NCBI GenBank assembly: GCA_903872505.1
Contig: CAIQKV010000028.1
Coordinates: 1 to 64,000, forward strand
DNA length: 64,000 nucleotides
Origin: an uncultured Opitutia bacterium
GTDB lineage: Bacteria; Verrucomicrobiota; Verrucomicrobiia; Opitutales; Opitutaceae
Direction of reading: 5' to 3'
The translations under genes and the position numbers were made by a program. Shown piece by piece: positions 541 to 18,845 of the stretch (position 1 is the first letter of the stretch; each line of letters opens with the position of its first letter). The notes below the pieces were generated by a model. The model saw nothing but the letters and a program-made list of their open reading frames with translations, ran no database searches and was not told the origin of the DNA.

Positions 541-604
541 GCGCAAGATTCGCGCTGCCATCCGCAAGAAACGCGCAACCCTGCGGCCGACTTTCCGCTA
601 GGCT
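541..604 (+). promoter_or_regulatory. Putative shared operator/promoter (site A) for hydrogenase operon; TAGGCT -10 at 599-604
   Basis: GCGC 552, CCGCAA 562, GCGC 573, GCGG 583, -10 at 599, plus an extra GCGC at 541; same spacing as five other sites in the window. Confidence 0.65.
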
Positions 605-706
605 GGCGGGGCTCAGTGCTTCCTGAGCGCCGCGAAACCCCTCGCCCCCACCCGAAAATTTATCGCCCCGGCCGGAAATTTTCCCGACCGGCATTTTTCC
701 CATACC

Positions 707-1843
707 ATGAACTCCCTCATGAAAATCAACGAGACGGCACCCACCATCTACGAGCAGATGGTTTCCCGCGGCGTGGATCGCCGCGATTTCCTGAAGTTCT
801 GCGCCTGGATGGGCGCGTACCTGGGCCTCGAGAGCTCCGCCGCCGCGCAGATCGCGAAGGCGATCGAGACCAAGCGGCGCATTCCCGTGGTGTGGATGCA
901 TTTTCAGGAGTGCACCTGCTGCAGCGAGTCGTTCCTGCGCTCCTCGCACCCGATCGTCGCCGACATCCTGCTCGACAAGATTTCCCTCGACTACACGGAG
1001 ACCCTGCAGGCCGCCTCGGGCTTCCAGGCGGAGGAGATCCTCCACGACACCATCACGAAGTACAAAGGCGAGTACCTGCTGCTGGTCGAGGGCTCCGTGC
1101 CGCTCGGCGCGGACGGCGCCTACTGCGTCGTCGCCGGCAAGTCCGCCCTCGACTCCCTCCACGAGGTCGCCGCCGGGGCGAAGGCCATCATCGCCTGGGG
1201 CAACTGCGCCAGCTCCGGCTGCGTGCAGGCCGCCAACCCGAATCCGACGCAGGCCATGCCGGTCAGCGCCATCATCAAGGACAAGCCAGTCATCAACGTG
1301 CAGGGCTGCCCGCCGATCGCCGAGGTCATGGCCGGCGTGCTGGTCCACCTGCTCGCCTTCGACCGCATCCCGCAGCTCGACGCGCTCGGTCGGCCCAAGG
1401 CCTTCTATTCGCGCCGCGTGCACGACACCTGCGCCCGCCGCGCGAACTACGACGCCGGCCTGTTCGTCGAGAGCTTCGACGACGAGAACGCCCGGAAGGG
1501 CTTCTGCCTCTACAAGGTCGGCTGCCGCGGCCCGAGCACCTACAACTCCTGCGCCACGATCAAGTGGAACAACGGCACGAGCTATCCGATCCAGTCCGGC
1601 CACGGCTGCATCGGCTGCTCCGAGGCCAAGTTCTGGGACAACGGGCCGTTCTACCAGCGGCTCACCAACTTCCCCGGCTTTGGGATCGAGTCCACCGCCG
1701 ACAAGATCGGGCTCACCGTCGGCGGCGTCGTCGCCGCAGCCGTGCTGTCCCACGCCGTGCTGACCAACGTCCGCAAGGGCGAGGAAATCGGCGAAGGTCC
1801 CGGCGAGAAGTCCGACTCCGGCAAACCCGCCGGCCAGCCCTAA
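707..1843 (+). CDS. hyaA: [NiFe] hydrogenase small subunit, TAT signal (RRDFLKF) and C-terminal membrane anchor
   Basis: [41 protein letters not shown]-terminal hydrophobic helix. Confidence 0.95.
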
Positions 1844-1880
1844 CCCCTGCGCAACCCTGAACTAGCGAAGGCACCTTATC

Positions 1881-3608
1881 ATGAGCAACCGCATCGTAGT
1901 TGATCCCGTCACCCGCATCGAGGGCCACCTCCGCATCGAGGCCGAAGTCAAGGACGGCAAGATCGTGGACGCCTGGAGCGCCGGCACCATGGTGCGCGGC
2001 CTGGAAATCATCCTGAAGGGGCGCGACCCGCGCGACGCCTGGGCGTTCTGCGAACGCGTGTGCGGCGTGTGCACCACCGTGCACGCCCTCGCCTCGGTCC
2101 GCTCCGTCGAGGACGCGCTCGGCATCAAGATCCCGCCCGCCGCCGAGCTGATCCGCAACATCATGTATTGCGTGCAGAACGTGCAGGACCACGTCGTCCA
2201 CTTCTACCACCTGCACGCGCTCGACTGGGTGGACGTGGTCAGCGCGCTGAAGGCCAACCCGGCCGAGGCCTCGCGCATCGCGCAAAGCATCTCGCACTGG
2301 CCGAAGAGCTCGCCGGCGTATTTCGCCGACCTGCAGAAGCGCCTGACCGGCTTCGTGGCGAGCGGCCAGCTCGGCATCTTCGCCAACGCCTACTGGGGCC
2401 ACCCGGCCTACAAGCTGCCGCCCGAGATCAACCTGATCGGCGTCGCCCACTACCTCGAGGCGCTGGAATGGCAGAAGGAGATCGTGAAGGTCCACGCCAT
2501 CTTTGGCGGCAAGAACCCCCACCCGAACTACCTCGTGGGCGGCATGCCCTGCTCGATCAACCTCGATGAGGCCAACGCCATCAACGCCGAGCGGCTCGCC
2601 CTCGTGGGCCAGCTCCTCAAGAACGCCCGCGACTTCGTCGAGCAGGTCTACTACCCGGACCTCCTCGCGGTCGCGCCCTACTACCTCGACTGGGCCGGCA
2701 TCGGCGGCGGCCTCGAGAACTACCTGTGCTACGGCGATCTGCCCACCGCGGGCTTCAGCAACCTCGACAGCTACAAGTTCAAGCGCGGGGCGATCCTCGG
2801 GCGCAACCTCGCCGAGGTGCACCCGGTCGACCCGAAGGACACCCAGACCGGCATCGAGGAGTTCATCGACAACTCCTGGTACGACTACAAGGACGGCGCC
2901 ACCAAGGGCGGCCGCCACCCGTGGGCGGGCGAGACCAACCTGAAGTACACCGGCCCGAAGACGCCCTACGCGAACCTCGACGTCGACCAGAAGTACAGCT
3001 GGCTCAAGACCCCTCGCTGGAAGGGCCACGCCATGGAGGTCGGCCCGCTCTCGCGCATGCTCGTCGGCTTCGCCAGCAACCAGACCGAGATCAAGGAGGC
3101 CGTGCTCGAGACCCTCGGCGCGCTCAACGCCCCGGCGTCCGTCCTCTTCTCCACGCTCGGCCGCACCGCCGCGCGCGGCATCGAGGCGCGGCTCACCGCC
3201 AAATGGGGCCTCGAGTTCTTCGACACCCTCGTCGCCCTCATCAAGGCCGGCGACACCCGCACCTTCACCAAGGAGATGTGGGAGCCTTCGACCTGGCCGG
3301 CCGAATGCAAGGGCGTCGGCACCAGCGAGGCGCCCCGCGGCGCCCTCGCCCACTGGATCGTCATCAAGGACCGCAAGATCGACAACTACCAGCTTGTCGT
3401 CCCCTCCACCTGGAACGCCTCCCCGCGCGACGCGAAGGGCCAGCGCTCCGCCTACGAGGCGTCCCTCATCGGCACGCCGGTCCACGACCCCAAGCAACCG
3501 CTCGAAATCATCCGCACCATCCACTCGTTCGATCCCTGCCTCGCCTGCGCCGTCCACCTCTACGAGAACGGCGCCGAGGTCTCGCATCACGACCTGCTGG
3601 TGAAATAA
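1881..3608 (+). CDS. hyaB: [NiFe] hydrogenase large subunit
   Basis: L1 motif ERVCGVCTTVHALAS and L2 motif FDPCLACAVH followed by cleavable tail LYENGAEVSHHDLLVK. Confidence 0.96.
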   Translation: MSNRIVVDPVTRIEGHLRIEAEVKDGKIVDAWSAGTMVRGLEIILKGRDPRDAWAFCERVCGVCTTVHALASVRSVEDALGIKIPPAAELIRNIMYCVQNVQDHVVHFYHLHALDWVDVVSALKANPAEASRIAQSISHWPKSSPAYFADLQKRLTGFVASGQLGIFANAYWGHPAYKLPPEINLIGVAHYLEALEWQKEIVKVHAIFGGKNPHPNYLVGGMPCSINLDEANAINAERLALVGQLLKNARDFVEQVYYPDLLAVAPYYLDWAGIGGGLENYLCYGDLPTAGFSNLDSYKFKRGAILGRNLAEVHPVDPKDTQTGIEEFIDNSWYDYKDGATKGGRHPWAGETNLKYTGPKTPYANLDVDQKYSWLKTPRWKGHAMEVGPLSRMLVGFASNQTEIKEAVLETLGALNAPASVLFSTLGRTAARGIEARLTAKWGLEFFDTLVALIKAGDTRTFTKEMWEPSTWPAECKGVGTSEAPRGALAHWIVIKDRKIDNYQLVVPSTWNASPRDAKGQRSAYEASLIGTPVHDPKQPLEIIRTIHSFDPCLACAVHLYENGAEVSHHDLLVK

Positions 3609-3617
3609 AGGAGCCCC

Positions 3618-4379
3618 ATGAGCGCCTCACACGATTACCAGCGCGTCTACGTCTGGGAACAGCCGGTGCGGTGGTTTCACTGGATCAACGCCCTCGCCAT
3701 CACGGTGCTGGGCGTCACCGGTTACCTGATCGCCCACCCGCCCGCGTTCATGATCTCGCGGGAGGCGTCGTTCAGCTACTGGTTCGGCACCGTGCGGTTC
3801 GTGCACTTCACGACCGCCTACGTGCTGATGGTGAACTTCGTCGTTCGGCTCTACTGGTCCTTCGCGGGCAACAAGTACGCCAACTGGCGGAGCTTCTTCC
3901 CGCTGACCCGGGCCCAGCTGCGGCAGATCTGGGACGTGCTGAAGGTCGACATCCTCCAGTTCAGCAACAAGCCGGTCGAGACGCTCGGGCACAACTCGAT
4001 GGCCTATTTCACCTACACGGCCACGGGCCTGCTGACGATTTTCCAGATCGTCACGGGTTTCGCGCTCTACGCCCCGACCAGCGCGGCGTGGTTTCCCCAC
4101 CTCTTCACCTGGGTCGTGCCGCTGTTCGGCAGCGAGTACACGCTGCGAATCTTCCACTACGCCGCCATGTGGCTCTTCGCCCTGTTCACGATCATCCACG
4201 TCTACCTCGTGTTCTATCATGACTACGTCGAAGGCCACGGGGTGATTTCCTCGATGGTGGGCGGCTGGAAGTTCCTCGAGAAGGACCAGATCGAGGCCGA
4301 GCAGGCCACGGGCATGTCGCCGTTGCCCTCCCGGAAGCCGGACCCCAAACCCGCGGCCAAGCTGAAGCCCTCGGGCTGA
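3618..4379 (+). CDS. hyaC: Ni/Fe-hydrogenase b-type cytochrome subunit
   Basis: VYVWEQPVRWFHWINALAITVLGVTGYLI, four hydrophobic segments, position in operon. Confidence 0.93.
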   Translation: MSASHDYQRVYVWEQPVRWFHWINALAITVLGVTGYLIAHPPAFMISREASFSYWFGTVRFVHFTTAYVLMVNFVVRLYWSFAGNKYANWRSFFPLTRAQLRQIWDVLKVDILQFSNKPVETLGHNSMAYFTYTATGLLTIFQIVTGFALYAPTSAAWFPHLFTWVVPLFGSEYTLRIFHYAAMWLFALFTIIHVYLVFYHDYVEGHGVISSMVGGWKFLEKDQIEAEQATGMSPLPSRKPDPKPAAKLKPSG

Positions 4380-4386
4380 CCCAGCC

Positions 4387-4929
4387 ATGCTGCTGCTCGA
4401 CTCCAGGCTTGAGGGCGAGGCCTACGCCCGCCCCCCCGCCGATGCCCCGGGCTCCCGCGTGCTCATCCTGGGCATCGGCAATGTCCTGATGGGCGACGAG
4501 GGCGTGGGCGTGCACGTCCTTCGCCTGCTTGAACAGGAGCCCGCCGCGGCGGGCGTCCGCCTGCTCGATGGCGGTACCGGCGGCGTCAACCTCCTGGCCG
4601 AGTTCGGGGAGGTCGACTCGATCGTCCTGATCGACGCCACGCGGGACGGCCGTCCGGCCGGCACCATCACCTACCTGCACCCGGAGTGTGTGGGCGACCT
4701 GCCCCGCGGGCTCGGGGCGCATGACTTCGGGCTGAAGGACCTGTTTGCCGCCGCCGCGCTCATCGGCCGGTTGCCCGGCCTGCACCTCTACACCATTTCG
4801 GTCGAGACGATCCGGCCGATGTGCACCGAGCTTTCGCCCCCGGTCGCCGCCGCCGTACCCGAGGTGGCGTTCACCGCGCGGGCCCATGCCGCGCGCCTGG
4901 CGGCCCCGGCCGGTTCCGCCGCGGCTTAA
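4387..4929 (+). CDS. hyaD: Hydrogenase maturation protease (HyaD/HupD family)
   Basis: VLILGIGNVLMGDEGVGVHVLRLLE motif. Confidence 0.93.
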   Translation: MLLLDSRLEGEAYARPPADAPGSRVLILGIGNVLMGDEGVGVHVLRLLEQEPAAAGVRLLDGGTGGVNLLAEFGEVDSIVLIDATRDGRPAGTITYLHPECVGDLPRGLGAHDFGLKDLFAAAALIGRLPGLHLYTISVETIRPMCTELSPPVAAAVPEVAFTARAHAARLAAPAGSAAA

Positions 4930-4940
4930 GCACAATTTTT

Positions 4941-4993
4941 GCGCGGCCCTCCGCAATCGCTGCGGAGCCAGACGCGCGGCGCCGCGCCATACT
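4941..4993 (+). promoter_or_regulatory. Putative shared operator/promoter (site B); perfect dyad TCCGCA-N5-TGCGGA, -10 CATACT 4988-4993
   Basis: GCGC 4941, CCGCAA 4951, GCGG 4962, GCGC 4974, CATACT 4988. Confidence 0.68.
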
Positions 4994-5060
4994 GCCTCGA
5001 CTTCCCAGCCAACGCCACCACCTTAGACTGACCGCGGCGCGCCCCTTCCTTTTTCCATCC

Positions 5061-5399
5061 ATGAAACATCATAACCAAATCAAACTCACCGGCTGCCTTT
5101 TCCTGCTCGCCGCTGCGCTCAGTTACGCCGCCCCGGTGGCCGAGAACTGGGATAACAATTGCACCAAGTGCCACGGCGCCGACGGCAAGGGCCAGACCAA
5201 GGTTGGCAAGAAGCTCTCCCTCAAGGACTACACCGATGCTAAGGTCCAGGCCGAGCTGAAGGACACGGACATGGCCAAGGCCATCACCGAGGGCGTCAAG
5301 GACAAGAACGGCAAGGAGAAGATGAAGGCCTACGCCCCCACGCTTGCCCCCGCCGAGATCACGGACCTCGTCGCCTACATCCGGAAGTTCAAGGCCTGA
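5061..5399 (+). CDS. Small monoheme c-type cytochrome with signal peptide
   Basis: MKHHNQIKLTGCLFLLAAALSYA signal; NCTKCHGADGKG. Confidence 0.9.
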   Translation: MKHHNQIKLTGCLFLLAAALSYAAPVAENWDNNCTKCHGADGKGQTKVGKKLSLKDYTDAKVQAELKDTDMAKAITEGVKDKNGKEKMKAYAPTLAPAEITDLVAYIRKFKA

Positions 5400-5491
5400 C
5401 CCGGGCCGCTTCAACGTCGAGCCGACGCCCGGGGACCGAATTCCCGGCGCCGGCTCTTGCTTGTTCCCACTCCGCCTGATTTTTCCCCCCG

Positions 5492-6988
5492 ATGCCCGAT
5501 CCCACCCCCAAACCATCCGCCGCGCCGGCCCGGTCGCGGTCGCCGTTCAACAATTGGATCAGCGCCGCCGGCGGCGTCCTGGCCGTGGGCGCGCTCTTCT
5601 CGTTCGCGCTGCTCGTCTGGATCGACTTCACGTCGGGGGACAAGAACCCGTACCTCGGGATCTTTACCTACCTGGTCGCGCCCGGCTTCCTGATCTCGGG
5701 CCTGGTCGCGGTGTTCGCGGGTGCGTGGCTGCAGCGCCGCTACGCGATCAAGTACGCGGGGGAATCGCCCGATCGCTGGCAGCTGAAGTTCGACGATCCC
5801 CGCCAGCGCCGGATGATCATCCTGGCGACCATCGGCGCGGTGGCGTTCCTGCTGCTGAGCGTGTTCGGCAGCTACCAGACCTATCACTATTCCGAGTCCG
5901 TGCAGTTCTGCGGCGAGGTCTGCCACCGGGCGATGAATCCCGAGTTCGTGACCTACCAGCGCGGCGCCCACGCCCGGGTGGACTGCGTCGACTGCCATAT
6001 CGGCGCCGGCGCGGAGTGGTTCATCAAGGCCAAGATCAACGGCACCCACCAGCTGATCGCCTACACCCTGAACAACTACAGCCGCCCCATCGCGACGCCG
6101 ATCAAGAACCTCCGCCCCGCCCAGGACATCTGCGAGAAATGCCACTGGCCCGAGAAATTCCACGGCAACATCGATGTCAGCTTTGAGCATGTCCTGTCCG
6201 ACCGCGGCAACACGCCCTACGCCGTCCGCATGCTGATGCGCGTGAACACGACCCGCGCGGGCAGCCCGGCCGGCGGGATCCACTGGCACGTGAACCGGAA
6301 CGAGAAGGTCGAATACTTCGCCTCCGACGAGAAGCGGCAGGACATTCCCTGGATGCGCGTGACCAACAAGCGCGACGGCACCTCGCGGGTCTATCGCACC
6401 GCGGCCTACAAGGGCGAGCCGCCCGCGGGCGAGATCCGGACGATGGACTGCATGGACTGCCACAACCGTCCCGCCCACGTCTTCCCCACCGCCAACGAGG
6501 CCGTGGAGAAATCCCTCGCCGCCGGCACCCTCAGCCTGCAGCTGCCCAACATCAAGCGCGAGGCCGTGAAGGCGCTCCTCCAGAAGGAAATCACCACCGC
6601 GGCGGACGCCCCGCAGAAAATCGCCGACTACCTGCGCGCGAAGTACATCGGCGCGCCCGAGCTGCCCGCCACCATCACCGAGGTGCAGCGGATTTACACG
6701 GTCACCGTTTTCCCGGAGCGCAAGGCCGACTGGCGCGTCTACCCGAACAACATCGGGCACAAGGACTGGCCCGGTTGCTTCCGCTGCCACGACGACAAGC
6801 ACAAGACTTCGCTCGGTGAAACCGTGCGGTCCAGCGACTGCCGCTCGTGCCACACGATCCTGGCCCAGGGCAAGGCGGCCGAGATCGAGCTGCTCAACGC
6901 CAAGGGCATGGACTTCCAGCACCCCGGCGGCGACCTCGATCCCGACCTGACCTGCTCCGACTGCCACAACGGCGGCATCCAGAAATAG
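5492..6988 (+). CDS. NapC/NirT/NrfH-type membrane-anchored multiheme cytochrome c (6 CxxCH + 1 CX3CH)
   Basis: N-terminal TM helices; FCGEVCHRAMNPEFVTYQRGAHARVDCVDCHIGAGAEW; CEKCHWP; CMDCH; CFRCH; CRSCH; CSDCH. Confidence 0.9.
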   Translation: MPDPTPKPSAAPARSRSPFNNWISAAGGVLAVGALFSFALLVWIDFTSGDKNPYLGIFTYLVAPGFLISGLVAVFAGAWLQRRYAIKYAGESPDRWQLKFDDPRQRRMIILATIGAVAFLLLSVFGSYQTYHYSESVQFCGEVCHRAMNPEFVTYQRGAHARVDCVDCHIGAGAEWFIKAKINGTHQLIAYTLNNYSRPIATPIKNLRPAQDICEKCHWPEKFHGNIDVSFEHVLSDRGNTPYAVRMLMRVNTTRAGSPAGGIHWHVNRNEKVEYFASDEKRQDIPWMRVTNKRDGTSRVYRTAAYKGEPPAGEIRTMDCMDCHNRPAHVFPTANEAVEKSLAAGTLSLQLPNIKREAVKALLQKEITTAADAPQKIADYLRAKYIGAPELPATITEVQRIYTVTVFPERKADWRVYPNNIGHKDWPGCFRCHDDKHKTSLGETVRSSDCRSCHTILAQGKAAEIELLNAKGMDFQHPGGDLDPDLTCSDCHNGGIQK

Positions 6989-7050
6989 CCCGCCGCCCGC
7001 GCCGGTCGCCATGCCTTGATCGGGCGACCGGCGGGTTCACCGCAAAAAAC

Positions 7051-7103
7051 GCGCCGGTTCGCGCAAGTGCTGCGCAGCCGGTGCGCGGGGATTGTCGCAT
7101 ACT
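7051..7103 (+). promoter_or_regulatory. Putative shared operator/promoter (site C); dyad GCGCA-N5-TGCGC, -10 CATACT 7098-7103
   Basis: GCGC at 7051, 7061, 7072 and 7083; CATACT 7098. Confidence 0.68.
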
Positions 7104-7118
7104 GGCAATCGAGGATCT

Positions 7119-9347
7119 ATGAACGCATTCCACCGGCGTGTCTTTCTGCCAGCCTTCGCCCTGCTGGCTCCTGTTCTGGGGTTGGCGGCACCGGCCGCTC
7201 CCGCCGCCAGCAAGGCGCCCGTGGTCGCCAACTCGGACTGCCTGGACTGCCACGCCGCGGAGTTCAAACCCCGCCAGAAGGGCCAGCCGGCCGAGTGGAT
7301 CGGCGTCCGGCCCGAACTCTTCGCCAAGTCCGCGCACGCCAAGCTCAACTGCGTCGACTGCCACGCGACGATCACGGAAACGCCCCACGACTCGAAGCTG
7401 CCCCCCGTGCAATGCGCCTCGTGCCACGAGAAGTCGCTCTCGACCCATGCGTTTCACCCGCGCCTCGCGCTCACCCCCGTGCCCGCGGGCAAGGATACCT
7501 CCTGCACCGAGTGCCACGGCGCGCACGACACCGCCGCCGTCAAGCAGAAGGAATTCGCCTTCAACGGGGCGGGCCAGATCGCGGCGTGCAGCCGCTGCCA
7601 TGAAGCGGCGGCCAAGGATTACCTCGCCTCCGCCCACGCCGCCCGCCGGGACGGCGTCAAGCGCACCACGCCCGACTGCCTCGCCTGCCACTCGGAACGC
7701 CTCGCCAGCGTGGCCCCGGGCCAGTCGAAGGTGGCGCTGAAGCTCGCCCAGGCGAAACTTTGCGAGTCCTGCCACGTCGGCAAGGCCGAGGTCGCCGGCC
7801 AGTCCAATCTCGGCGCCAAGTTCGTCGCCTCGTTCGACCACTCCGTCCACGGCGCCGCACTGCGGGCGGGCAAGGACCAGGCCGCCGGCTGCGTGGACTG
7901 CCACGGCGCCCACGCCATGAACAAGGCCGCCGTCGCCGGGGCCCGGATCAACCGCATCCGCGTCACCGAGACCTGCGCCAAGTGCCACGAGAAACAGGCA
8001 AAGGAATACCGCACCAGCGTCCACGCCATCGCCCTGCTGAAGGGCAACCTCGACTCCGCCGGCTGCACCAGCTGCCACGGCGAACACGACATCAAGCTGC
8101 ACACCGACCCGACCGCGCCCGTGGCCAAGGCCAACCTCGCGCAGCAGGTCTGCGCCGAGTGCCACGCCTCCGTCCGGCTCACCCGCCGCTACGGCCTGTC
8201 CAACGACACCTTCAAGACCTTCTCCGACAGCTACCACGGCCTCGCGGTCCGCGGCGGCGCGGTGGAGGTGGTGAACTGCGCCAGCTGCCATGGCGTGCAC
8301 GCCATCAAGTCGCAGAACGACCCGACCTCCACCATCAGCAAGGCCAATCTCGCGCTGACCTGCGGGGAGTGCCACCCCGGGGCCAACACCCGGTTCTCGG
8401 TCGGCGCGGTGCACGCCAGCGAGTCGCAGAAGGACGCCTCGCCCTGGCTGTACTGGATTTCCAACTTCTATGTCATCCTGATCGTCGTCGTGGTCGGCGG
8501 GATGGTGCTGCACAACCTCCTCGATTTCCTGCGGAAGACGCGCCACAAGCTCGCCGTCCAGAAGGGCGAGGCCACGGAGCTGCATGTCGCCCACCGGCTC
8601 TACCTGCGCATGACGGTGAACGAGCGCCTGCAGCACGCCGTGCTCGTGCTCAGCTTCACCGCCCTCGTCATCACCGGCTTCATGCTGCGTTATCCCGAGG
8701 CCTGGTGGGTCGTCGGCATCCGGCACCTCAGCTCCGGGGCCTTCGAATTGCGGAGCCTGGCCCACCGCGTCGCCAGCGTCATCATGCTGGGCAGCGGCGT
8801 CTGGCATGTCTGCTACCTCGCGTTCACCGCGACCGGCCGGAAGCTCTTCCTCGACATCCTGCCGCGCTGGCGCGACGTCACCGATCCGTGGCGCGTGCTC
8901 AAATACAACCTCGGGCTGGCCCCGGACAAGCCGGCGTTCGGCCGCTTCTGCTACATCGAGAAGGCGGAATACTGGGCGATGGCCTGGGGCACCGCCCTGA
9001 TGACCCTGACCGGCGCCATCCTGTGGTTCGACAACGCCTCGATGGGCTACATCACCAAGCTGGGCTTCGACATCGCGCGGCTGGTGCACTTCTACGAGGC
9101 GATCCTCGCCACGCTCGCCATCATTGTCTGGCATTTCTACTGGATCATCTACAACCCCGACGTCTACCCGATGAACCTCTCGTGGCTCACCGGCCGGATG
9201 TCCGAGGGCGAGATGATGGAGGAGCACCCGCTCCAGCTCGAGGCGATGAAGGCCGCGGAGCGCGCCGCGCAGCCGGACGGATCCGACGACCCGGCGACTC
9301 CGCCGCCGGAACCGCGGCCACCGGGACCGGGGGTTCCGCCCCCATGA
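7119..9347 (+). CDS. Multiheme cytochrome c (13 CxxCH) fused to C-terminal cytochrome b561-like membrane domain
   Basis: Signal peptide MNAFHRRVFLPAFALLAPVLGLAA, 13 CxxCH counted, then five or so TM segments with cyt-b-like HRLYLRMTVNERLQHAVLVLSF. Confidence 0.9.
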   Translation: MNAFHRRVFLPAFALLAPVLGLAAPAAPAASKAPVVANSDCLDCHAAEFKPRQKGQPAEWIGVRPELFAKSAHAKLNCVDCHATITETPHDSKLPPVQCASCHEKSLSTHAFHPRLALTPVPAGKDTSCTECHGAHDTAAVKQKEFAFNGAGQIAACSRCHEAAAKDYLASAHAARRDGVKRTTPDCLACHSERLASVAPGQSKVALKLAQAKLCESCHVGKAEVAGQSNLGAKFVASFDHSVHGAALRAGKDQAAGCVDCHGAHAMNKAAVAGARINRIRVTETCAKCHEKQAKEYRTSVHAIALLKGNLDSAGCTSCHGEHDIKLHTDPTAPVAKANLAQQVCAECHASVRLTRRYGLSNDTFKTFSDSYHGLAVRGGAVEVVNCASCHGVHAIKSQNDPTSTISKANLALTCGECHPGANTRFSVGAVHASESQKDASPWLYWISNFYVILIVVVVGGMVLHNLLDFLRKTRHKLAVQKGEATELHVAHRLYLRMTVNERLQHAVLVLSFTALVITGFMLRYPEAWWVVGIRHLSSGAFELRSLAHRVASVIMLGSGVWHVCYLAFTATGRKLFLDILPRWRDVTDPWRVLKYNLGLAPDKPAFGRFCYIEKAEYWAMAWGTALMTLTGAILWFDNASMGYITKLGFDIARLVHFYEAILATLAIIVWHFYWIIYNPDVYPMNLSWLTGRMSEGEMMEEHPLQLEAMKAAERAAQPDGSDDPATPPPEPRPPGPGVPPP

Positions 9348-9435
9348 GCCGCCCCCGGCCGGGGTCATGAGGCCCGGCCGGAGTCCGCCAGCGGCGGCAC
9401 CGAACCATCGGCCGCTTATGGGATTGCCAAAATAC

Positions 9436-9488
9436 GCCCATGGACGAGCAATGCCTGCGTAGTCCGTTGGGGATAATTTCTATATGGT
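9436..9488 (+). promoter_or_regulatory. Putative shared operator/promoter (site F, degenerate); -10 TATGGT 9483-9488
   Basis: GCCC 9436, GAGCAA 9446, GCGTAG 9457, TATGGT 9483, at the common spacing. Confidence 0.45.
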
Positions 9489-9498
9489 TTTAAGGAGA

Positions 9499-11655
9499 GT
9501 GAAACTCTCATCGTCCGTTCCCACCCGGTTGGCCCGCAGGCTGACGGGATTGTTTTTATTGCTGGCGGCATCCGCCTTCGGGGCCGGCAGCCCGGTTGCG
9601 CCGGCCAAGCCCCCGGTCGTGCCGAACACCGAGTGCCTAGATTGCCACGAGGCGGAGTTCAAGCCGCTCAAGAAGGGGCAGGCCCCCGAGTGGATCGGCG
9701 TGCGCTCCGCGATCTTTGCGAAATCCGTCCACGGGAAACTGAACTGCGTCGACTGCCACGTCACCATCACCGAGACGCCGCACGACTCCAAGCTCCCACC
9801 CGCCCAGTGCGCGACCTGCCACTCGAAGGAGTCCACCCAGTACGCGACGAGCATCCACAGCGTCAGCCACCAGATGGGCGGGAACGATGCCGCCTCGTGC
9901 GCCAGCTGCCACGGCAAGCACGACATGGTGCCGGTCAAGCAGCTCGATTCGCCGGTGTTCAAGCTGAACCTCGCGAAGACCTGCGGCACCTGCCACGACG
10001 ACAACAAGCTCACGAGCGAGTACCGCATGGGCCAGAACAAGGCCGCCGGCCACTACCTCGACAGCATCCATGGCCGCGCCCTGATGAAAATGGGCCTGAT
10101 CGTCGCCCCCTCCTGCAACGACTGCCACGGCGTCCACGACATCAAGCGCAGCATCGACAAGAACTCGCACTCCAATCACGCGAACATCGCGGCGTCCTGC
10201 GGCAAGTGCCACGTCGGCATCGAGGAAACCTACAACGCCAGCGTGCACGGGCAGCTGCTCGTGAAGGGCGACAAGCGCGGCCCGGTCTGCACCGACTGCC
10301 ACAGCGCGCACGACATCGAGAAGCCGGCGACCGCCCACTTCAAGAGCCTCAGCGACCTGAGCTGCGGCAAGTGCCACCAGGACCGCCTCGAGCACTACCG
10401 CGAAACCTATCACGGCAAGGCGATGGCGCTCGGCCAGCCCAACGTCGCGTCCGAGGTCGCGGCCTGCTACGATTGCCACGGGCACCACGACGTGTTCCCG
10501 GTCAGCGATCCGCGCTCGCGGCTGTCGAAGGACCGGATCGTCGCCACGTGCTCCCAGTGCCACCCCGGCGTGAACGAGCAGTTCACCAAGTACCAGCCGC
10601 ACGCCAACCCGCTGGACAAGGCCAATTACCCGATCCTCAACAAGGTCTTCCTGTTCATGACGGCGCTGCTGATCGGCACGTTTGCCTTCTTCGGGCTGCA
10701 CACCCTCTTCTGGCTTTTCCGGTCGATCTATCTCTTTCTGACCGATTCGAAGACCTTCCGGGAGGCGGTCATCAAGCAGAATGCGGATGACGTCCAGTAC
10801 ACGCGCTTCACGCCGTTCGAGCGCTTCCTGCACATGCTCGTGGTCACCAGCTTCCTGCTGCTCGTCATCACCGGCATGCCGCTGAAGTTCTACTACACCG
10901 ACTGGGCCAAGGTGATCTTCCACTTCATCGGCGGGGCCGGCGTGGCGCGTTCGCTGCACCACTTTGGCGCCATCATCACTTTCACCTACTTCGCGCTCCA
11001 CCTCGGCGAGATCGTCACGATGCTGTGGCGGCGCCGCGGGCTGATCCGCAACCCGGCCACCGGCAAGATCGAGCCCTTCCGCTTCCTGCGGGCGGTGTTC
11101 GGGCCCGACTCAATGGTGCCCTCCTTCCAGGACCTGCGCGACTTCGTCGCCCACCAGAAATGGTTCTTCGGCAAGGGCCCGCGGCCGCAGTTCGACCGCT
11201 GGACGTACTGGGAGCGGTTCGACTACTTCGCGGTGTTCTGGGGCGTGTTCATGATCGGCGTCTCGGGCCTGATCCTGTGGTTCCCGAAGTTCTTCACCCT
11301 GTTCCTCCCGGGCTGGATGATCAACATCGCGCACGTGATCCACTCGGACGAGGCCCTGCTCGCCGCCGGGTTCATCTTCACCTTCCATTTCTTCAACACG
11401 CATTTCCGCATCGAGAAGTTCCCGATGGACACGGTCATCTTCTCGGGCCGGATCTCGCAGACCGAGATGTTGCACGAGCGGAAGCGCTGGTATGACCGGC
11501 TCGTCGCCGACAACCGGCTGAAGGATTACGCCGTGAAGGACGAATGGGAGGGCCGCAAGAAGGTCGCCAAGGCCATCGGCTTCCTGTTCTTCGGCACCGG
11601 CCTGGTCCTGCTCGTCCTCATCGTCTACGCCATGATGTCGCGCCTGGGGCACTGA
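9499..11655 (+). CDS. Multiheme cytochrome c (11 CxxCH) fused to cytochrome b561-like domain, paralog of the previous gene (start codon uncertain: ATG 9484, GTG 9499 or TTG 9529)
   Basis: 11 CxxCH; N-terminal region nearly identical to upstream paralog (ECLDCHEAEFKPLKKGQAPEWIGVR...NCVDCHVTITETPHDSKLPP). Confidence 0.88.
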   Translation: MKLSSSVPTRLARRLTGLFLLLAASAFGAGSPVAPAKPPVVPNTECLDCHEAEFKPLKKGQAPEWIGVRSAIFAKSVHGKLNCVDCHVTITETPHDSKLPPAQCATCHSKESTQYATSIHSVSHQMGGNDAASCASCHGKHDMVPVKQLDSPVFKLNLAKTCGTCHDDNKLTSEYRMGQNKAAGHYLDSIHGRALMKMGLIVAPSCNDCHGVHDIKRSIDKNSHSNHANIAASCGKCHVGIEETYNASVHGQLLVKGDKRGPVCTDCHSAHDIEKPATAHFKSLSDLSCGKCHQDRLEHYRETYHGKAMALGQPNVASEVAACYDCHGHHDVFPVSDPRSRLSKDRIVATCSQCHPGVNEQFTKYQPHANPLDKANYPILNKVFLFMTALLIGTFAFFGLHTLFWLFRSIYLFLTDSKTFREAVIKQNADDVQYTRFTPFERFLHMLVVTSFLLLVITGMPLKFYYTDWAKVIFHFIGGAGVARSLHHFGAIITFTYFALHLGEIVTMLWRRRGLIRNPATGKIEPFRFLRAVFGPDSMVPSFQDLRDFVAHQKWFFGKGPRPQFDRWTYWERFDYFAVFWGVFMIGVSGLILWFPKFFTLFLPGWMINIAHVIHSDEALLAAGFIFTFHFFNTHFRIEKFPMDTVIFSGRISQTEMLHERKRWYDRLVADNRLKDYAVKDEWEGRKKVAKAIGFLFFGTGLVLLVLIVYAMMSRLGH

Positions 11656-11743
11656 GCCCGCAGGCGCGCCATGACGGCCCTCCAGCCTCCAGCCATCGCC
11701 GGCGGGAGGGTGCAGGTGACGCGGGCCAGCAATGACAAGATAT

Positions 11744-11796
11744 GCGCAGCTTTCACCAACGGGCAGTTAGAAGGCCGCGCCGGTTTCGGTGATACT
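11744..11796 (+). promoter_or_regulatory. Putative shared operator/promoter (site E); -10 GATACT 11791-11796
   Basis: GCGC 11744, CACCAA 11754, GCGC 11777, GATACT 11791; third element degenerate. Confidence 0.55.
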
Positions 11797-11839
11797 GGGA
11801 TGTTCGGTCAACCCCAGCCCCCAAAATACTTCGACTACC

Positions 11840-12166
11840 ATGAAACGCGCCCTGATCCTTCTCGCTTCACTCTCCAGCCTCACTGTCGCCGCCTACGCCT
11901 TCGATGCCTCGGCCACGTGGGGTGAACAATGCGCCAAGTGCCACGGCAAGGATGGCAAGGGCGACACCAAGATGGGCAAGAAGCTCAGCATCAAGGATTA
12001 CTCTGACGCCACCGCGCAGGCCGCCTTCACCGATGACGAGGCCTTCAAGGCCATCAAGGAAGGCACGAAGGACAAGACCGGCAAGGTGCGCATGAAGGCC
12101 GTCGAAGGCATGTCGGACGCCGACATCAAGGCCATGGTCACCTATTTCCGGACGCTGAAGAAATAA
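11840..12166 (+). CDS. Small monoheme c-type cytochrome (paralog of 5061..5399)
   Basis: MKRALILLASLSSLTVAAYA signal; QCAKCHGKDGKGDTKMGKKLSIKDY. Confidence 0.9.
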   Translation: MKRALILLASLSSLTVAAYAFDASATWGEQCAKCHGKDGKGDTKMGKKLSIKDYSDATAQAAFTDDEAFKAIKEGTKDKTGKVRMKAVEGMSDADIKAMVTYFRTLKK

Positions 12167-12200
12167 GTCCTCCGCAGGCAACCAGCAAACGCCGCCCGCG

Positions 12201-12851
12201 ATGCAAGCCCGCAACCGGACCCCGATGGTGCTCACCATCCTGGTGGTTGCCTTCGCGGGCCTCGCGGCGGCGTTTCTTTCCGACTCCTGGGGATACCCGG
12301 CCCCGCGCGCCATCATTCCGCCGGTTGACCGGGCCATCCTCGATCCTGCCACCGTCCGCCGGTCCTATGCCGACTTGGTCCGGGCCAAGGAGGATCTGTC
12401 CGATTTTGACTGCTATGCCTGCCATGAAAAGGGCCACCCGCCGCCGCTGCGGTACGACGGCAATCAAAAGCTGATCGTCCCCCCGGAACACGCGGATGTG
12501 GTGATGGGGCACGGCACCCACGGCCGGAACAACAACTGTTTCAACTGCCACAACGAAAACAATCTCACGACCCTGCAGCCCCGGGACGGCCGCGAGTTGA
12601 AGCTGGAGGAAAGCACGCAGCTCTGCGGCAGCTGCCACGGCCCGACCTACCGCGACTGGGATTCCGGCGCGCACGGCCGCATCAACGGCTATTGGAACAC
12701 CAAGCTCGGCCCCGCGGTGAAGAAGGACTGCGTGAACTGCCACAATCCGCACTCCCCCCGCTTCCCCGGCCGCAAGCCGGCCCCCGGCCCGCACCCCCTT
12801 CATCCCGTCGCGGAACCCGCCCAGGCGGTTGAAGCTCCGCCCACCCACTAA
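12201..12851 (+). CDS. Tetraheme c-type cytochrome
   Basis: N-terminal hydrophobic segment; CYACH, CFNCH, CGSCH, CVNCH. Confidence 0.87.
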   Translation: MQARNRTPMVLTILVVAFAGLAAAFLSDSWGYPAPRAIIPPVDRAILDPATVRRSYADLVRAKEDLSDFDCYACHEKGHPPPLRYDGNQKLIVPPEHADVVMGHGTHGRNNNCFNCHNENNLTTLQPRDGRELKLEESTQLCGSCHGPTYRDWDSGAHGRINGYWNTKLGPAVKKDCVNCHNPHSPRFPGRKPAPGPHPLHPVAEPAQAVEAPPTH

Positions 12852-12852
12852 C

Positions 12853-13803
12853 ATGCCGACGCCCGGACTTCACGAGATCCCGACCGCCCCCGATGCAGGC
12901 ATGAGCCGGCGCAGCTTCCTGCGCACGTCCGCCGTGCTGGCCACCGGGCTCGCCGCGGTCGCCGCCAGCCTGAAGCCGCTGTTCGAGATGGAGGATTTCA
13001 CCTCCGCCGAGCAGTTCATGCAGAAATATTACAAGGAGCTCACGCCGGACGAAATGGCGAAGGTCCTGAAGCGCATCGAGCGCGAGGTGGAGAAGCAGTA
13101 CGGCGTCCGTCCGCATGTGCGCGACCTGAAGCCGATGGACGGCGTCGAGTTCGTCTACGCGCTCAACCTTTCCCGCTGCATCGGCTGCCGCAAGTGCGTG
13201 CACGCCTGCGTCGCCGAGAACAACCAGTCGCGCAACCCCGAGATCCAGTACATCCGCGTGCTGAAGATGCCGCACGGCACCTTCGACCTGGAGAAGGGCG
13301 ACCACAACTACGACACCGCCCAGGTCCCGGAAAAGGGCTTTTTCTACATGCCGGTGCAGTGCCAGCAGTGCCACAACCCGCCCTGCGTCAAGGTGTGCCC
13401 CGTCAACGCCACCTGGCAGGAAAAGGACGGCATCACCGTGATCGACTACGACTGGTGCATCGGCTGCCGCTACTGCGAGGCCGCCTGCCCGTATTGGGCG
13501 CGCCGGTTCAATTTCACCAAGCCTTCCATCCCGGCCGACCGCCTCAACCCCGAGATGGCCTACCTCGGCAACCGCCCGCGCAAGCAGGGCGTGATGGAGA
13601 AATGCCACTTCTGCGTGCAACGCACGCGCGCCGGCCGCTACCCCGCCTGCCTCGAGGTCTGCCCGACGGGCTCGCGCAAGTTCGGCAACATCCTCGATCC
13701 CGACAGCGAGATTTCCCAGATCCTGCGCACCAAGCGCGTGTTCATGCAGCTCAAGGAGGACGTCGGGACCAATCCGCGCTTCTTCTACTACTTCGACGTA
13801 TGA
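12853..13803 (+). CDS. TAT-exported ferredoxin-type subunit with four [4Fe-4S] sites (NrfC/HybA/DmsB-like)
   Basis: SRRSFLRT TAT motif; CIGCRKCVHAC, CQQCHNPPCVKVC, CIGCRYCEAAC, CHFCVQR...CLEVC. Confidence 0.92.
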   Translation: MPTPGLHEIPTAPDAGMSRRSFLRTSAVLATGLAAVAASLKPLFEMEDFTSAEQFMQKYYKELTPDEMAKVLKRIEREVEKQYGVRPHVRDLKPMDGVEFVYALNLSRCIGCRKCVHACVAENNQSRNPEIQYIRVLKMPHGTFDLEKGDHNYDTAQVPEKGFFYMPVQCQQCHNPPCVKVCPVNATWQEKDGITVIDYDWCIGCRYCEAACPYWARRFNFTKPSIPADRLNPEMAYLGNRPRKQGVMEKCHFCVQRTRAGRYPACLEVCPTGSRKFGNILDPDSEISQILRTKRVFMQLKEDVGTNPRFFYYFDV

Positions 13804-15551
13804 TCACCGCCGTCCGCAACTACCTCGTCTTCCTCAAGCGGTCCGGTCGCGTCGCCTTCGTGGGGGACTGGCGCTATTACACCTGGATGGGCGTGCTCAC
13901 CGTCGTGATCCTGTTCGGGCTGAATGCCTACGCGAAGCAGTTCTCCCACGGCTTGATCGTCACCGGCATGAGCAACGAGGTCTCCTGGGGCGTCTACATC
14001 GCCAACTTCACCTTCCTCGTCGGCGTGGCCGCCGCCGCCGTGATGATGGTCATCCCCGTCTACATCTACGACAACGAGGAACTCCACGACCTGGTGATCT
14101 TCGGCGAACTGCTCGCTGTCGCCGCGATCATCATGTGCCTCATGTTCGTGACGGTCGACTTGGGCCGGCCGGACCGGTTCTGGCACCTGATCCCGGGCCT
14201 CGGTCAGATGAACTTTCCCAATTCGCTGCTCAGCTGGGACGTCATCGTGCTCAACGGCTACCTCCTGCTCAATGTCCACATCTGCGGCTACCTGCTGTAT
14301 TGCCGCTACCAGAAGCGGATGCCGACCAAGTGGTTCTACGTCCCGTTCGTCTTCGTCGCCATCCTCTGGGCCATCTCGATCCACACGGTCACCGCCTTCC
14401 TCTACGTCGGACTCGGCGGCCGGCCCTTCTGGAACCAGGCCATCATCGGCCCCCGCTTCCTCGCCTCCGCCTTCACCGCCGGCCCCGCGTTGATCATCCT
14501 CGCCATCCAAGTGGTCCGGCGCGTCACCGCCCTCGTGCCCCAAACCGGCATCATGCGCCAACCCGGCTCCGGCACCCCGGCCCTCGCCGCCATGAGCCGC
14601 CCGGCCACCCTGGCCGACCTCGAGCTGCTCACCCGCCACCTGCCGCAATTCGAGTCCGTGCCCCTCGACACGCGCCGCGAGGTCCTGCCCACGCTCACCC
14701 TCCTGCAAGTCGGCGCGGGCGACATCCTCCTGCGCCAGGGCGAGCTCAACCCGGATGCGTTTTTCGTGCTGCAGGGTCGCGTGGTGGTCGAGCGCCAGGA
14801 ACGGGGCCGCTACCGCGTGACCCGCACCGCCGTGCCCGGCGAGCAGTTCGGCGAGGTCTCCGCCCTGGCCGGGACCGCGCGCCAGGCCACCGCCATCGCG
14901 GAGGCCGACACCCTCGTCCTCCGCGTGCCCTCCGCGGCGCTGCGGACCATGATGAAGGCGGGCCCGCTCAACAAAATCATCCGGGCCCGCATGTCCGAGC
15001 GGCTCATGTTCACCGATCACGCCCTGATGACCCTGCGCGGCATCGTCCAGGTCGCCATGGTCATCAATGTGTTCCTGCTGCTCTGCGAGCTCTTCACCGA
15101 GTTCTACGCCGGCGGCCTGCACATCGCGTCGTCCAAATACCTCTACCTCGGCCTCGACGGCCACCACGCGCTCGTGCCGTGGATCTGGACCGCCGTGGGT
15201 TTCAACCTCATCGCGATGGTCCTGCTGGTGCTGCCCGTCAGCCGCAGCCTCAAGTGGCTCGATGTCGCCTGCGTGCTCTGCATCATCGGCATCTGGATCG
15301 AGAAGGGCATGGGCCTCGTCATCCCCGGCTTCATTCCCACGCCGCTCGGCGCCATCGTCGAATACTCGCCGTCGCTCAACGAGACGCTCGTCTGCTTCGG
15401 CATCTGGGCGTTCGGCCTGCTCTGCTACACCCTTTTCCTCCGCATGGCCGTGCCGATCCTCCAGGGCCGGCTGACCAAGGCCAACGAGGGCGTCTTCGAG
15501 CCCGGCCCCGACGACAAGATCCCCGAGTTGCCCGTCGCGTCGAATCCCTGA
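13800..15551 (+). CDS. NrfD/PsrC-family polytopic quinone-interacting membrane subunit with an inserted cyclic-nucleotide-binding (cNMP) domain
   Basis: ATGA overlap with ferredoxin gene; six NrfD-like TM segments, then cNMP domain (FGEVSALAGTARQATAIA), then four more TM segments. Confidence 0.88.
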   Translation: MITAVRNYLVFLKRSGRVAFVGDWRYYTWMGVLTVVILFGLNAYAKQFSHGLIVTGMSNEVSWGVYIANFTFLVGVAAAAVMMVIPVYIYDNEELHDLVIFGELLAVAAIIMCLMFVTVDLGRPDRFWHLIPGLGQMNFPNSLLSWDVIVLNGYLLLNVHICGYLLYCRYQKRMPTKWFYVPFVFVAILWAISIHTVTAFLYVGLGGRPFWNQAIIGPRFLASAFTAGPALIILAIQVVRRVTALVPQTGIMRQPGSGTPALAAMSRPATLADLELLTRHLPQFESVPLDTRREVLPTLTLLQVGAGDILLRQGELNPDAFFVLQGRVVVERQERGRYRVTRTAVPGEQFGEVSALAGTARQATAIAEADTLVLRVPSAALRTMMKAGPLNKIIRARMSERLMFTDHALMTLRGIVQVAMVINVFLLLCELFTEFYAGGLHIASSKYLYLGLDGHHALVPWIWTAVGFNLIAMVLLVLPVSRSLKWLDVACVLCIIGIWIEKGMGLVIPGFIPTPLGAIVEYSPSLNETLVCFGIWAFGLLCYTLFLRMAVPILQGRLTKANEGVFEPGPDDKIPELPVASNP

Positions 15552-15562
15552 CCGCCCGCGCC

Positions 15563-16012
15563 ATGCCGACCCAACTGACGGCCGATGACGCCCGGGTTTC
15601 CCTGAACGCCCATGTGGCCGCCAAGGGCGCGGAAATCCGCGCCTCGTACGGCCCCGCGATCGGCTGGAACGAGCTCAAGCTCATCCTCGAGGACCGGGCC
15701 TGCGTGCGCTATCCGTGCACGCTCGAGTTCAACGCGGAGCCGCTGCAACCCGGCGAGTTCGCGCATCCGCAGGCGAAGGGAGAAAATCCCGAGGATGGCT
15801 TCACGATGTTTGTCCATCCGTACTTCATGGCCCATCTGTCGGAAGTGCCGTGGCTCGTGCTCTACCAGCTCGTGCTGGTGAACTACGGCGAGTTCGCCTC
15901 GGGCGACGACGCCCTGACTTTCGGGGCCGCCGCCCTCGGGCTCCCGGAGGACGAGTATTACCAGCGTTTGTGCGAGTTGACCGACCCCATCAGTGACTGC
16001 AGCTGCGGCTAG
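15563..16012 (+). CDS. Hypothetical protein, 149 aa, C-terminal DCSCG
   Basis: ORF directly after NrfD gene, same strand, short gap; no family recognised. Confidence 0.7.
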   Translation: MPTQLTADDARVSLNAHVAAKGAEIRASYGPAIGWNELKLILEDRACVRYPCTLEFNAEPLQPGEFAHPQAKGENPEDGFTMFVHPYFMAHLSEVPWLVLYQLVLVNYGEFASGDDALTFGAAALGLPEDEYYQRLCELTDPISDCSCG

Positions 16013-16107
16013 GCCGCTTTTTTCCAATACCCCATTCCAGCGCGCCGGCCGGTCCGCGGCCCCAATCGTTCCGACCGGCCAACCTGCTCCGTTTCCTCGA
16101 AGCCTGC

Positions 16108-17796
16108 ATGAGCGACGACGACCATCACCATCCGGATGAGACCCCGCCAGCCGTTGTGCTCGCGCGGCTGGAGCAGCGGCTGGCGCGGTTGGAAAAACAC
16201 CTCGCCCTCCCGCCGTTGGAGAGTCACGCGACGCCGGCGGAACCAACCGTCGCTCCCGTGGAAACGGCGGTCGCCCCGGCCGCCCCAGCTGAGGAGGACC
16301 TGGAGTATGTCGTCGGCCAGAACTGGTTCGCGGGCGTCGGCGTCGTGGTGCTGACCTGTGGCGTCGGGTTCGCGCTCTCGCTGCCATTTCCGGGGCTGCC
16401 CGCGCTGGTCCCGTCGTTGATCGGCTACCTGCTGACCGGGGGGCTGTTCCTCGCGGCCTTCGTCGGCCGCAAGAGTTTCGAACTGGTCGCATATTGCCTG
16501 AAGGGGGCGGCCATGGCGCTGCTCTATTTCTCGACCCTGCGGCTGTTTTTCTTCGGCGCCGTGCCGGCGCTGGACATCGGGTCGGGACCGAGCCGCCTGG
16601 TCCTGCTCGCCGCTGTGATCCTCAATCTGGCGCTGGCCGTGCGCCAGCCTTCCGGTGCCCTGGTGGTGCTGGCCCTGCTCACCGGCTACATGACGGCCGT
16701 GGTGGCAAACGCACCCTGGTGGCTGTTTGTCAGCCTGACCTTGCTTTCCGTTTTGGTGGTATCGGCCGCGAGCCGGCGCGCCGCGCCCGCCCTGCTGTTC
16801 CTGGGCATCGGTGGCGGCTATCTGGCGCACCTGCTCTGGGTGATGGGCAATCCCTGGTCGGGCCGGCCGGTCCACCTCGCCACGGCGCCGGTCGCCAGCG
16901 TCTACTTCCTGCTGCTCTATGCGGTGATCATCGGCGCCGGTCCGCTGCTGCGGCGCCGCCAGCGCGACGAGGACCAGTTCGGCATCCTGACGGCGATCTT
17001 CAATTGTGCCTCCGGCTATGGGCTGTTTCTCGTGCACACCTTTCTCGCCTTCCCGGCGCAGTTCGCGGTGGCGCACCTGGTCGCGGCGCTGGTCTTCCTC
17101 GGGCTGGCCGCGACCTTCTGGCTCCGGTGCGAGAGCCGCGTGTCGGTGTTCTTCTACGCGATGACCGGCTACCTGGCGCTGACCGCGGCCATCCTGAAGA
17201 CCTTCCCCGTCCCCGCCCTCTTCATCTGGCTTTCCCTCCAGAGCCTGCTGGTCGTGGCCACGGCGCTGTGGTTCCGCTCCCGCTTCATCGTGGTCGCGAA
17301 TTTCGTGATCTTCGTCCTTGTCGTGCTGGGGTATATGTTCACCCCGGGGCGCGAGACCGGCATCAGCCTCGGCTTCGGCGTCGTGGCGCTGCTGACCGCC
17401 CGCATCCTCAACTGGCAGTCCGAAAGGCTCGAACTGAAGACCGACCTGATGCGCAACGCCTATCTGGCGTGCGCGTTTGTGGTTTTTCCCTATGCGCTCT
17501 ACCATCTCGTGCCTCGCGCCTTCGTCAGCGTTGCGTGGGTCGGCGTGGCCCTCGCCTATTATGTGATGAATCTCATCGTCCGGAATGTAAAATATCGCTG
17601 GATGGGGCATCTCACGCTGCTGCTCACGGTGCTTTACGTGATCGTGGCGGCTGTCACCCAGCTGACCCCCGGCTACCGCATCGTCAGCTTCCTGGTGCTG
17701 GGCACGGTGCTGGTGGTGGTGTCGCTCATTTTCACCCGGGTCCGGGCGCGCTGGCGCGCTGGCTCTTCTGACGGTTCCGTCAGTTCAAGCCGGTGA
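16108..17796 (+). CDS. DUF2339-like polytopic membrane protein
   Basis: Coiled N-terminus, GQNWFAGVGVVVLTCGVGFALSL..., many TM segments. Confidence 0.75.
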   Translation: MSDDDHHHPDETPPAVVLARLEQRLARLEKHLALPPLESHATPAEPTVAPVETAVAPAAPAEEDLEYVVGQNWFAGVGVVVLTCGVGFALSLPFPGLPALVPSLIGYLLTGGLFLAAFVGRKSFELVAYCLKGAAMALLYFSTLRLFFFGAVPALDIGSGPSRLVLLAAVILNLALAVRQPSGALVVLALLTGYMTAVVANAPWWLFVSLTLLSVLVVSAASRRAAPALLFLGIGGGYLAHLLWVMGNPWSGRPVHLATAPVASVYFLLLYAVIIGAGPLLRRRQRDEDQFGILTAIFNCASGYGLFLVHTFLAFPAQFAVAHLVAALVFLGLAATFWLRCESRVSVFFYAMTGYLALTAAILKTFPVPALFIWLSLQSLLVVATALWFRSRFIVVANFVIFVLVVLGYMFTPGRETGISLGFGVVALLTARILNWQSERLELKTDLMRNAYLACAFVVFPYALYHLVPRAFVSVAWVGVALAYYVMNLIVRNVKYRWMGHLTLLLTVLYVIVAAVTQLTPGYRIVSFLVLGTVLVVVSLIFTRVRARWRAGSSDGSVSSSR

Positions 17797-17877
17797 AAGA
17801 ATGTTCTGTGCCCCGCCGAACTGCCTGCCATGATGCATTTTTTGCGTTTTCTTGCGCACCTTTGAATCACAAAGATT

Positions 17878-17930
17878 GCGCGTAACTCCGCAATCGATGC
17901 GCAGCCTCCGGCGCGTTAATTTCCGATACT
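17878..17930 (+). promoter_or_regulatory. Putative shared operator/promoter (site D); -10 GATACT 17925-17930
   Basis: GCGC 17878, CCGCAA 17888, GCGC 17899, GCGC 17911, GATACT 17925; additional TTGCG(T/C) copies at ~17842 and ~17852. Confidence 0.68.
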
Positions 17931-18822: not shown

Positions 18823-18845
18823 TCACCCTCAACACCATCACTACC

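Follow-up and report, generated by a model that had tools for sequence, protein, structure and literature searches.

A conserved, putatively low-oxygen/redox regulon of Opitutaceae with a tandem direct-repeat operator and a strong PocR-AraC regulator candidate

The AraC I1-I2 site is activated through tandem direct repeats, the proximal copy of which overlaps the -35 box. The XylS/Pm site consists of two 15-bp direct repeats of the form A-box-N6-B-box (PMC5481539). The promoters described here resemble both in their head-to-tail repeats of A-box, gap and B-box with the proximal copy over the -35 region, but they differ in the box sequences (CAA...YGCGCAG), in number (~18 strong promoters in the genome instead of one operon) and in the sensor of the candidate regulator, which is a PocR rather than a XylS/AraC effector domain. 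PocR-family proteins are chiefly known as sensors of small molecules, namely 1,2-propanediol and glycerol (PMC11264322). Salmonella PocR, the pdu/cob activator, has the same N-terminal PocR domain and C-terminal AraC HTH pair as our candidate (PMC11264322), whereas the targets here are respiratory, the set holds no propanediol genes, and the sensor carries a conserved set of cysteines that includes C99. In its targets (cbb3 oxidase, hemN, universal stress protein, hydrogenase and cytochromes) the regulon is like those of FNR, FixK and ANR; the protein fold and binding site are different, and there is no FNR-box motif. The RegA/PrrA redox regulons are alike in target classes as well (hydrogenase, cbb3, cytochromes). 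RegA/PrrA is a response-regulator protein with a Fis-type HTH, unlike the candidate described here. We found no description of this regulon or its regulator in the open-licence literature.

We analysed a 64,000-nucleotide stretch of DNA (the window) from a bacterium of the Opitutaceae (Verrucomicrobiota), in which an earlier note had recognised six promoters with a common layout. Each of them carries an operator of two direct repeats, CAA-N4-YGCGCAG, at a spacing of 21 bp, followed by a -10 hexamer whose first base lies 36 bp beyond that of copy 2:

542..557, + strand: hydrogenase promoter, operator copy 1, CGCAAGATTCGCGCTG
563..578, + strand: hydrogenase promoter, operator copy 2, CGCAAGAAACGCGCAA
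599..604, + strand: hydrogenase promoter, -10 TAGGCT
707-4929: hydrogenase operon (HyaA, HyaB, cytochrome b, maturation protease)
4931..4946, + strand: cyt c/NapC-like promoter, operator copy 1, CACAATTTTTGCGCGG
4952..4967, + strand: cyt c/NapC-like promoter, operator copy 2, CGCAATCGCTGCGGAG
4988..4993, + strand: cyt c/NapC-like promoter, -10 CATACT (genes 5061-6988)
7041..7056, + strand: multihaem cyt c-b561 fusion promoter, operator copy 1, CGCAAAAAACGCGCCG
7062..7077, + strand: multihaem cyt c-b561 fusion promoter, operator copy 2, CGCAAGTGCTGCGCAG
7098..7103, + strand: multihaem cyt c-b561 fusion promoter, -10 CATACT (gene 7119-9347)
9426..9441, + strand: second multihaem cyt c-b561 fusion promoter, operator copy 1, GCCAAAATACGCCCAT
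9447..9462, + strand: second multihaem cyt c-b561 fusion promoter, operator copy 2, AGCAATGCCTGCGTAG
9483..9488, + strand: second multihaem cyt c-b561 fusion promoter, -10 TATGGT
11734..11749, + strand: cyt c/multihaem/Fe-S/NrfD promoter, operator copy 1, GACAAGATATGCGCAG
11755..11770, + strand: cyt c/multihaem/Fe-S/NrfD promoter, operator copy 2 (degenerate), ACCAACGGGCAGTTAG
11791..11796, + strand: cyt c/multihaem/Fe-S/NrfD promoter, -10 GATACT (genes 11840-15551)
17868..17883, + strand: multihaem cytochrome/porin-like promoter, operator copy 1, CACAAAGATTGCGCGT
17889..17904, + strand: multihaem cytochrome/porin-like promoter, operator copy 2, CGCAATCGATGCGCAG
17925..17930, + strand: multihaem cytochrome/porin-like promoter, -10 GATACT (genes 18025-21047)

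Simple ORF calling places an ATG at 9484, within the fourth promoter's -10, and the true start codon must therefore lie further downstream. In the operon of the fifth promoter, the NrfD-like membrane subunit (13800-15551) has a cNMP-binding domain (PF00027) after its NrfD match in a Pfam scan; a 95% identical copy is found in a genome of the same genus (G015, L142:7733-9478). The domain could possibly provide allosteric control of the electron-transfer complex.

A profile built from the six sites alone recovers further sites throughout the genome. We count 18 strong sites at E <= 2e-5, with a profile built from those same 18 sites, and judged from the DNA sequence the six window promoters are part of a set of ~20. 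The set had been described as a hydrogenase/cytochrome regulon. Those genes are indeed served, but the regulon is much broader: it takes in the cbb3 oxidase cluster, hemN with a protoporphyrinogen oxidase-like gene, and ResB/CcsA for haem and cytochrome c biogenesis; genes for 2-oxoacid:ferredoxin oxidoreductase, a glutamate synthase small-subunit-like protein, a nitroreductase and an acetyl-CoA hydrolase-like protein; and genes for a universal stress protein, a HemN/HutW-like radical SAM protein, PdxH-like, EF-G-like and DksA/TraR-like proteins and small proteins without known function (gene names beyond the Pfam scans come from sequence inspection). A pattern search with one mismatch gave many chance matches in coding DNA, and profile models were used instead. 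R1/R2 tail matches at E > ~0.01 (e.g. on C12, C79 and C90) look like chance matches or half-sites and were left unused. Upstream of a bufferin-like operon (L063, G000:C96:76670-76712) the operator unit stands in tandem, CGCAAAATATGCGCAA CGCAATATTTGCGCAG, at a period of 16 bp instead of 21 bp and lacking a -10 at the usual distance; this tandem was kept out of the regulon. A single good copy upstream of the nuo operon (C108:23481) is an uncertain site.

The sites are not scattered: they precede respiratory genes both genome-wide and across the family, as expected of one regulon whose sites are conserved in relatives. The motif occurs in 44 of 61 Opitutaceae genomes. In a phylum-wide sample of 241 genomes it was found in 18 of 21 Opitutaceae and in none of the 220 sampled Verrucomicrobiota genomes outside this family. 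Among relatives, 10 genomes have sites before cbb3 genes, 7 before hemN, 5 before multihaem cytochrome fusions and 3 before pyruvate:ferredoxin oxidoreductase; in G005, which has the regulator described below, they precede both hemN and pyruvate:ferredoxin oxidoreductase genes. A small Cys-rich protein is encoded divergently from cbb3 in 10 genomes. A protein family of ~150-170 aa without a Pfam match (RWEALLR...TPLANPD..., most copies also with CPCGRNP and, towards their end, a C-x2-C) is among the two most conserved regulon members and lies divergent from cbb3 in ~10 genomes (L149, L171, L174, L144 and others), with a copy in the bacterium's own genome at L055:5676-6122. It is a candidate assembly factor or sensor.

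The earlier note saw no regulator gene in the window, which is correct; the likely regulator is encoded on another contig, at G000:C68:3780-4685. This gene follows a site and a nitroreductase gene and adjoins the cbb3 cluster. Its product is an AraC/XylS protein with a PocR domain (PF10114, 81.4 bits against a cut-off of 23.9 in the Pfam scan) and an HTH pair scoring 80.2 bits with HTH_18 and 62.1 bits with the second HTH model (PF12833/PF00165), above the cut-offs. The DNA-binding part has the AraC fold and matches the DNA-binding domains of AraC, SoxS, MarA and YesN in a fold search. In 40 orthologues the PocR-domain cysteines C61, C71, C74 and C94 are present in 40/40 and C99 in 38/40. The cysteine region has pLDDT < 50 in the AF2 model, and therefore no metal site can be claimed.

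It is very likely, in our assessment, that this protein activates a genome-wide regulon from the direct repeats; we favour low oxygen or a reduced redox state as the signal because of the target set. It may be that the protein binds these sites in response to a small molecule instead, an alcohol or fermentation product as in Salmonella PocR. The presence of the PocR domain and the propanediol/glycerol sensing of its characterised member (PMC11264322) speak for such a signal, as do the nitroreductase, acetyl-CoA hydrolase-like and ferredoxin oxidoreductase genes in the regulon. We nevertheless think it unlikely: the most conserved targets (cbb3 oxidase, hemN and cytochromes) are a classical low-oxygen set, the five cysteines are near-invariant, and no propanediol or glycerol catabolic genes were seen among the targets.

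The gene for the PocR-AraC protein recurs with the sites. It is present in 11 fetched regulon loci and recurs at such loci in ten relatives. Conversely, when 80 loci were fetched via the regulator alone (named Opitutaceae/Verrucomicrobiota contigs), 70 had strong sites, for a total of 153 sites compared with 2 in the reversed-sequence control. With orthologues defined at >=60% identity, the motif is present in 37 of the 40 Opitutaceae genomes that have an orthologue and in 7 of the 21 that lack one (Fisher p 2e-6). Across the 241 genomes of the phylum sample, 17 have both motif and regulator, one the motif alone and one the regulator alone (co-occurrence 17/18, p 7e-24, in a statistic that ignores phylogeny). 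The exceptions fall on both sides. Six genomes (near-complete G001, G030 and G049 and three less complete ones) have sites without an orthologue or close paralogue, and G002, G051 and G058 have an orthologue without a strong site. G002 and G051, of one genus, carry C99Y (FAGLYDS) in their regulators (G002:C6:119246 and G051:C1:1391924) and lack strong operator sites despite unchanged recognition helices.

A different or second regulator, be it a paralogue of 53-58% identity or another DNA-binding protein, would make the PocR-AraC gene a mere neighbour of the sites. Besides the six genomes with sites and no orthologue, both recognition helices are retained in these paralogues, which may share the operator sites. 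Against this, the bacterium's own genome has a single and distant paralogue (38%, C50), and HTH1 covaries with the A-box at a position known to contact bases, which singles out the PocR-AraC family. We applied a matrix with the A-box masked to loci of regulator homologues from other families. Loci with a changed HTH1 have best sites scoring 22-25, compared with a reversed-sequence maximum of 16.4, and keep a TGCNNAG-like B-box and the same -10 offset; in the STRHF loci the sites are found either in the interval separating the regulator from cbb3 or immediately before the regulator gene. Where HTH1 reads STRHFCK or SANYFSE, the CAA is absent in 18/18 half-sites, some of which are near-identical copies from close relatives. 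Where F226 is retained (L329, L331), CAA is present, at lower site scores; L336 (STRNFCK) has no site within its short locus. The A-box varies with HTH1 residue 226 while HTH2 and the B-box stay constant, which is what contact of HTH1 with the A-box and of HTH2 with the B-box would predict, though in few independent lineages. F226 aligns with a SoxS Trp, and the conserved HTH2 Arg R280 aligns with the B-box Arg. In MarA/Rob that Trp stacks on A-box bases, and the HTH2 Arg is a B-box contact (PMC8279559). The covariation ties the protein to the site beyond mere neighbourhood, though the independent changes are few; another regulator is improbable.

Two readings of the operator had to be compared. 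The earlier note divided it into four elements and read elements 2 and 3 as a dyad, as would suit a dimeric activator of the CRP/FNR or LuxR/NarL type in a class II position. CGCA-N5-TGCG dyads are present at 4950-4966 and 7061-7075, and the position is near -42. However, the column correlation between the two copies is 0.86 at 21 bp compared with 0.43-0.58 for self-dyads, and of the dyad only CA-N5-TG remains in the family-wide logo. This logo, drawn from 205 non-redundant sites of other genomes, reads CAARAWATGCGCAG in copy 1 and GSCAANNNNTGCGSAGC in copy 2. Element 1 is real but forms the right half of copy 1; the matching left half, a CAA lying 11-12 bp upstream, had been missed; elements 2 and 3 are real but together make up copy 2 of the same repeat; element 4 is not conserved in the 205 sites (0.04-0.11 bit per position). 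The element coordinates given earlier agree with the sequence, except that 573 reads GCGCAA rather than GCG[C/G]AG and 583 reads GCGG rather than GCGC. The logo, a CAA-N4-YGCGCAG direct repeat, does not resemble an FNR box (TTGAT-N4-ATCAA-like). A single full-length CRP/FNR protein was found; it is DNR-like, has an E-x-x-S-R helix and, by sequence inspection, lacks an FNR-type N-terminal cysteine cluster, and it was rejected as the regulator. The genome is 94.8% complete, which leaves a small chance that an FNR went unseen. We regard a dyad-binding activator as very improbable. The DNR-like gene (L068, G000:C96) and a ScdA/YtfE-like di-iron repair gene are arranged divergently, and the pair is likely a separate nitric oxide response.

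The tandem-repeat reading also fits the promoter geometry. The 205 sites were chosen on the 40-bp upstream core only, with the -10 left out of the selection; [TCG]A...T nevertheless starts at offset 57 in 168 of them and in <=17 at any other offset (44 to 74). Because of this choice the -10 offset counts as independently recovered, and the fixed distance to the -10 proposed earlier stands. The logo contains no -35 box, again as proposed. Given a normal -10-to-start distance, copy 2 lies at ~ -48 to -33 and copy 1 at ~ -69 to -54. The proximal copy thus overlaps the -35 region in a class-II-like position with a -10 present and the -35 absent, the start positions being assumed from the -10. From its sequence pattern, an A-box plus B-box unit repeated directly in tandem over the -35 region, the operator is of the AraC/XylS type, and the protein is linked to it by co-occurrence and covariation.

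In each leave-one-out round, five sites served to train a 69-bp position weight matrix, which was scanned over both window strands (128,000 positions). The held-out site ranked first in 6/6 rounds, with scores of 18-39 bits; with the -10 region removed from the matrix, five of six held-out sites still ranked first and the site at 11791 ranked second. With the six-site matrix, the top background score outside the listed sites is ~ -4 bits, and the highest non-site score, 3 bits, is a reverse-strand self-match on a listed site. Chance similarity of GC-rich upstream regions, which the GC content of 68% might suggest, is practically negligible and refuted by these ranks, the reversed-sequence controls, the independently recovered -10 offset and the 0/220 genomes of other families with matches.

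We propose that two PocR-AraC monomers would bind head-to-tail on the two 16-bp repeats, whose 21-bp spacing corresponds to two helical turns. Within a repeat, the distal CAA (A-box) would be read by HTH1 and the proximal YGCGCAG (B-box) by HTH2. Lying ~20 bp before the -10, the copy nearer the promoter would replace the -35 box, and the monomers would recruit RNA polymerase in its place as a class-II-type activator. The sequences themselves show the motif, its spacing, the regulon, its conservation, the co-occurrence and the HTH1/A-box covariation, from which we go on to infer direct DNA binding, activation and the signal. The signal would most likely be low oxygen or a reduced redox state, for which the conserved cysteines of the PocR domain may serve as the sensor. 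The C68 protein probably turns on low-oxygen respiration genes, and would take the role of FNR or FixK in switching on cbb3 oxidase, uptake hydrogenase and multihaem cytochromes, along with oxygen-independent haem synthesis (HemN), cytochrome c biogenesis and ferredoxin-dependent oxidoreductases. A further step, that it took over FNR's global oxygen-switch role in Opitutaceae by direct sensing via a cofactor bound to C61, C71, C74, C94 and C99, is a tentative proposal, possible yet somewhat doubtful; cofactor sensing is treated as hypothetical because the structural model is unreliable at the cysteines. If true, the protein would be an oxygen sensor of a new class, joined to the AraC DNA-binding fold.

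In summary, these promoters belong to a predicted low-oxygen/redox regulon that is conserved in Opitutaceae, is larger than first noted and comes with a strong candidate for its regulator. With the operator precisely defined, the gene named and a base contact predicted, the proposal is directly testable, and the motif model can assign poorly annotated multihaem cytochromes and small proteins to low-oxygen metabolism. The AraC/XylS family is better known for the control of single pathways; here, with no FNR protein detected, a member would be a global respiratory regulator, the predicted low-oxygen master switch of a family of bacteria often met with in soils, lakes, groundwater and termite guts.
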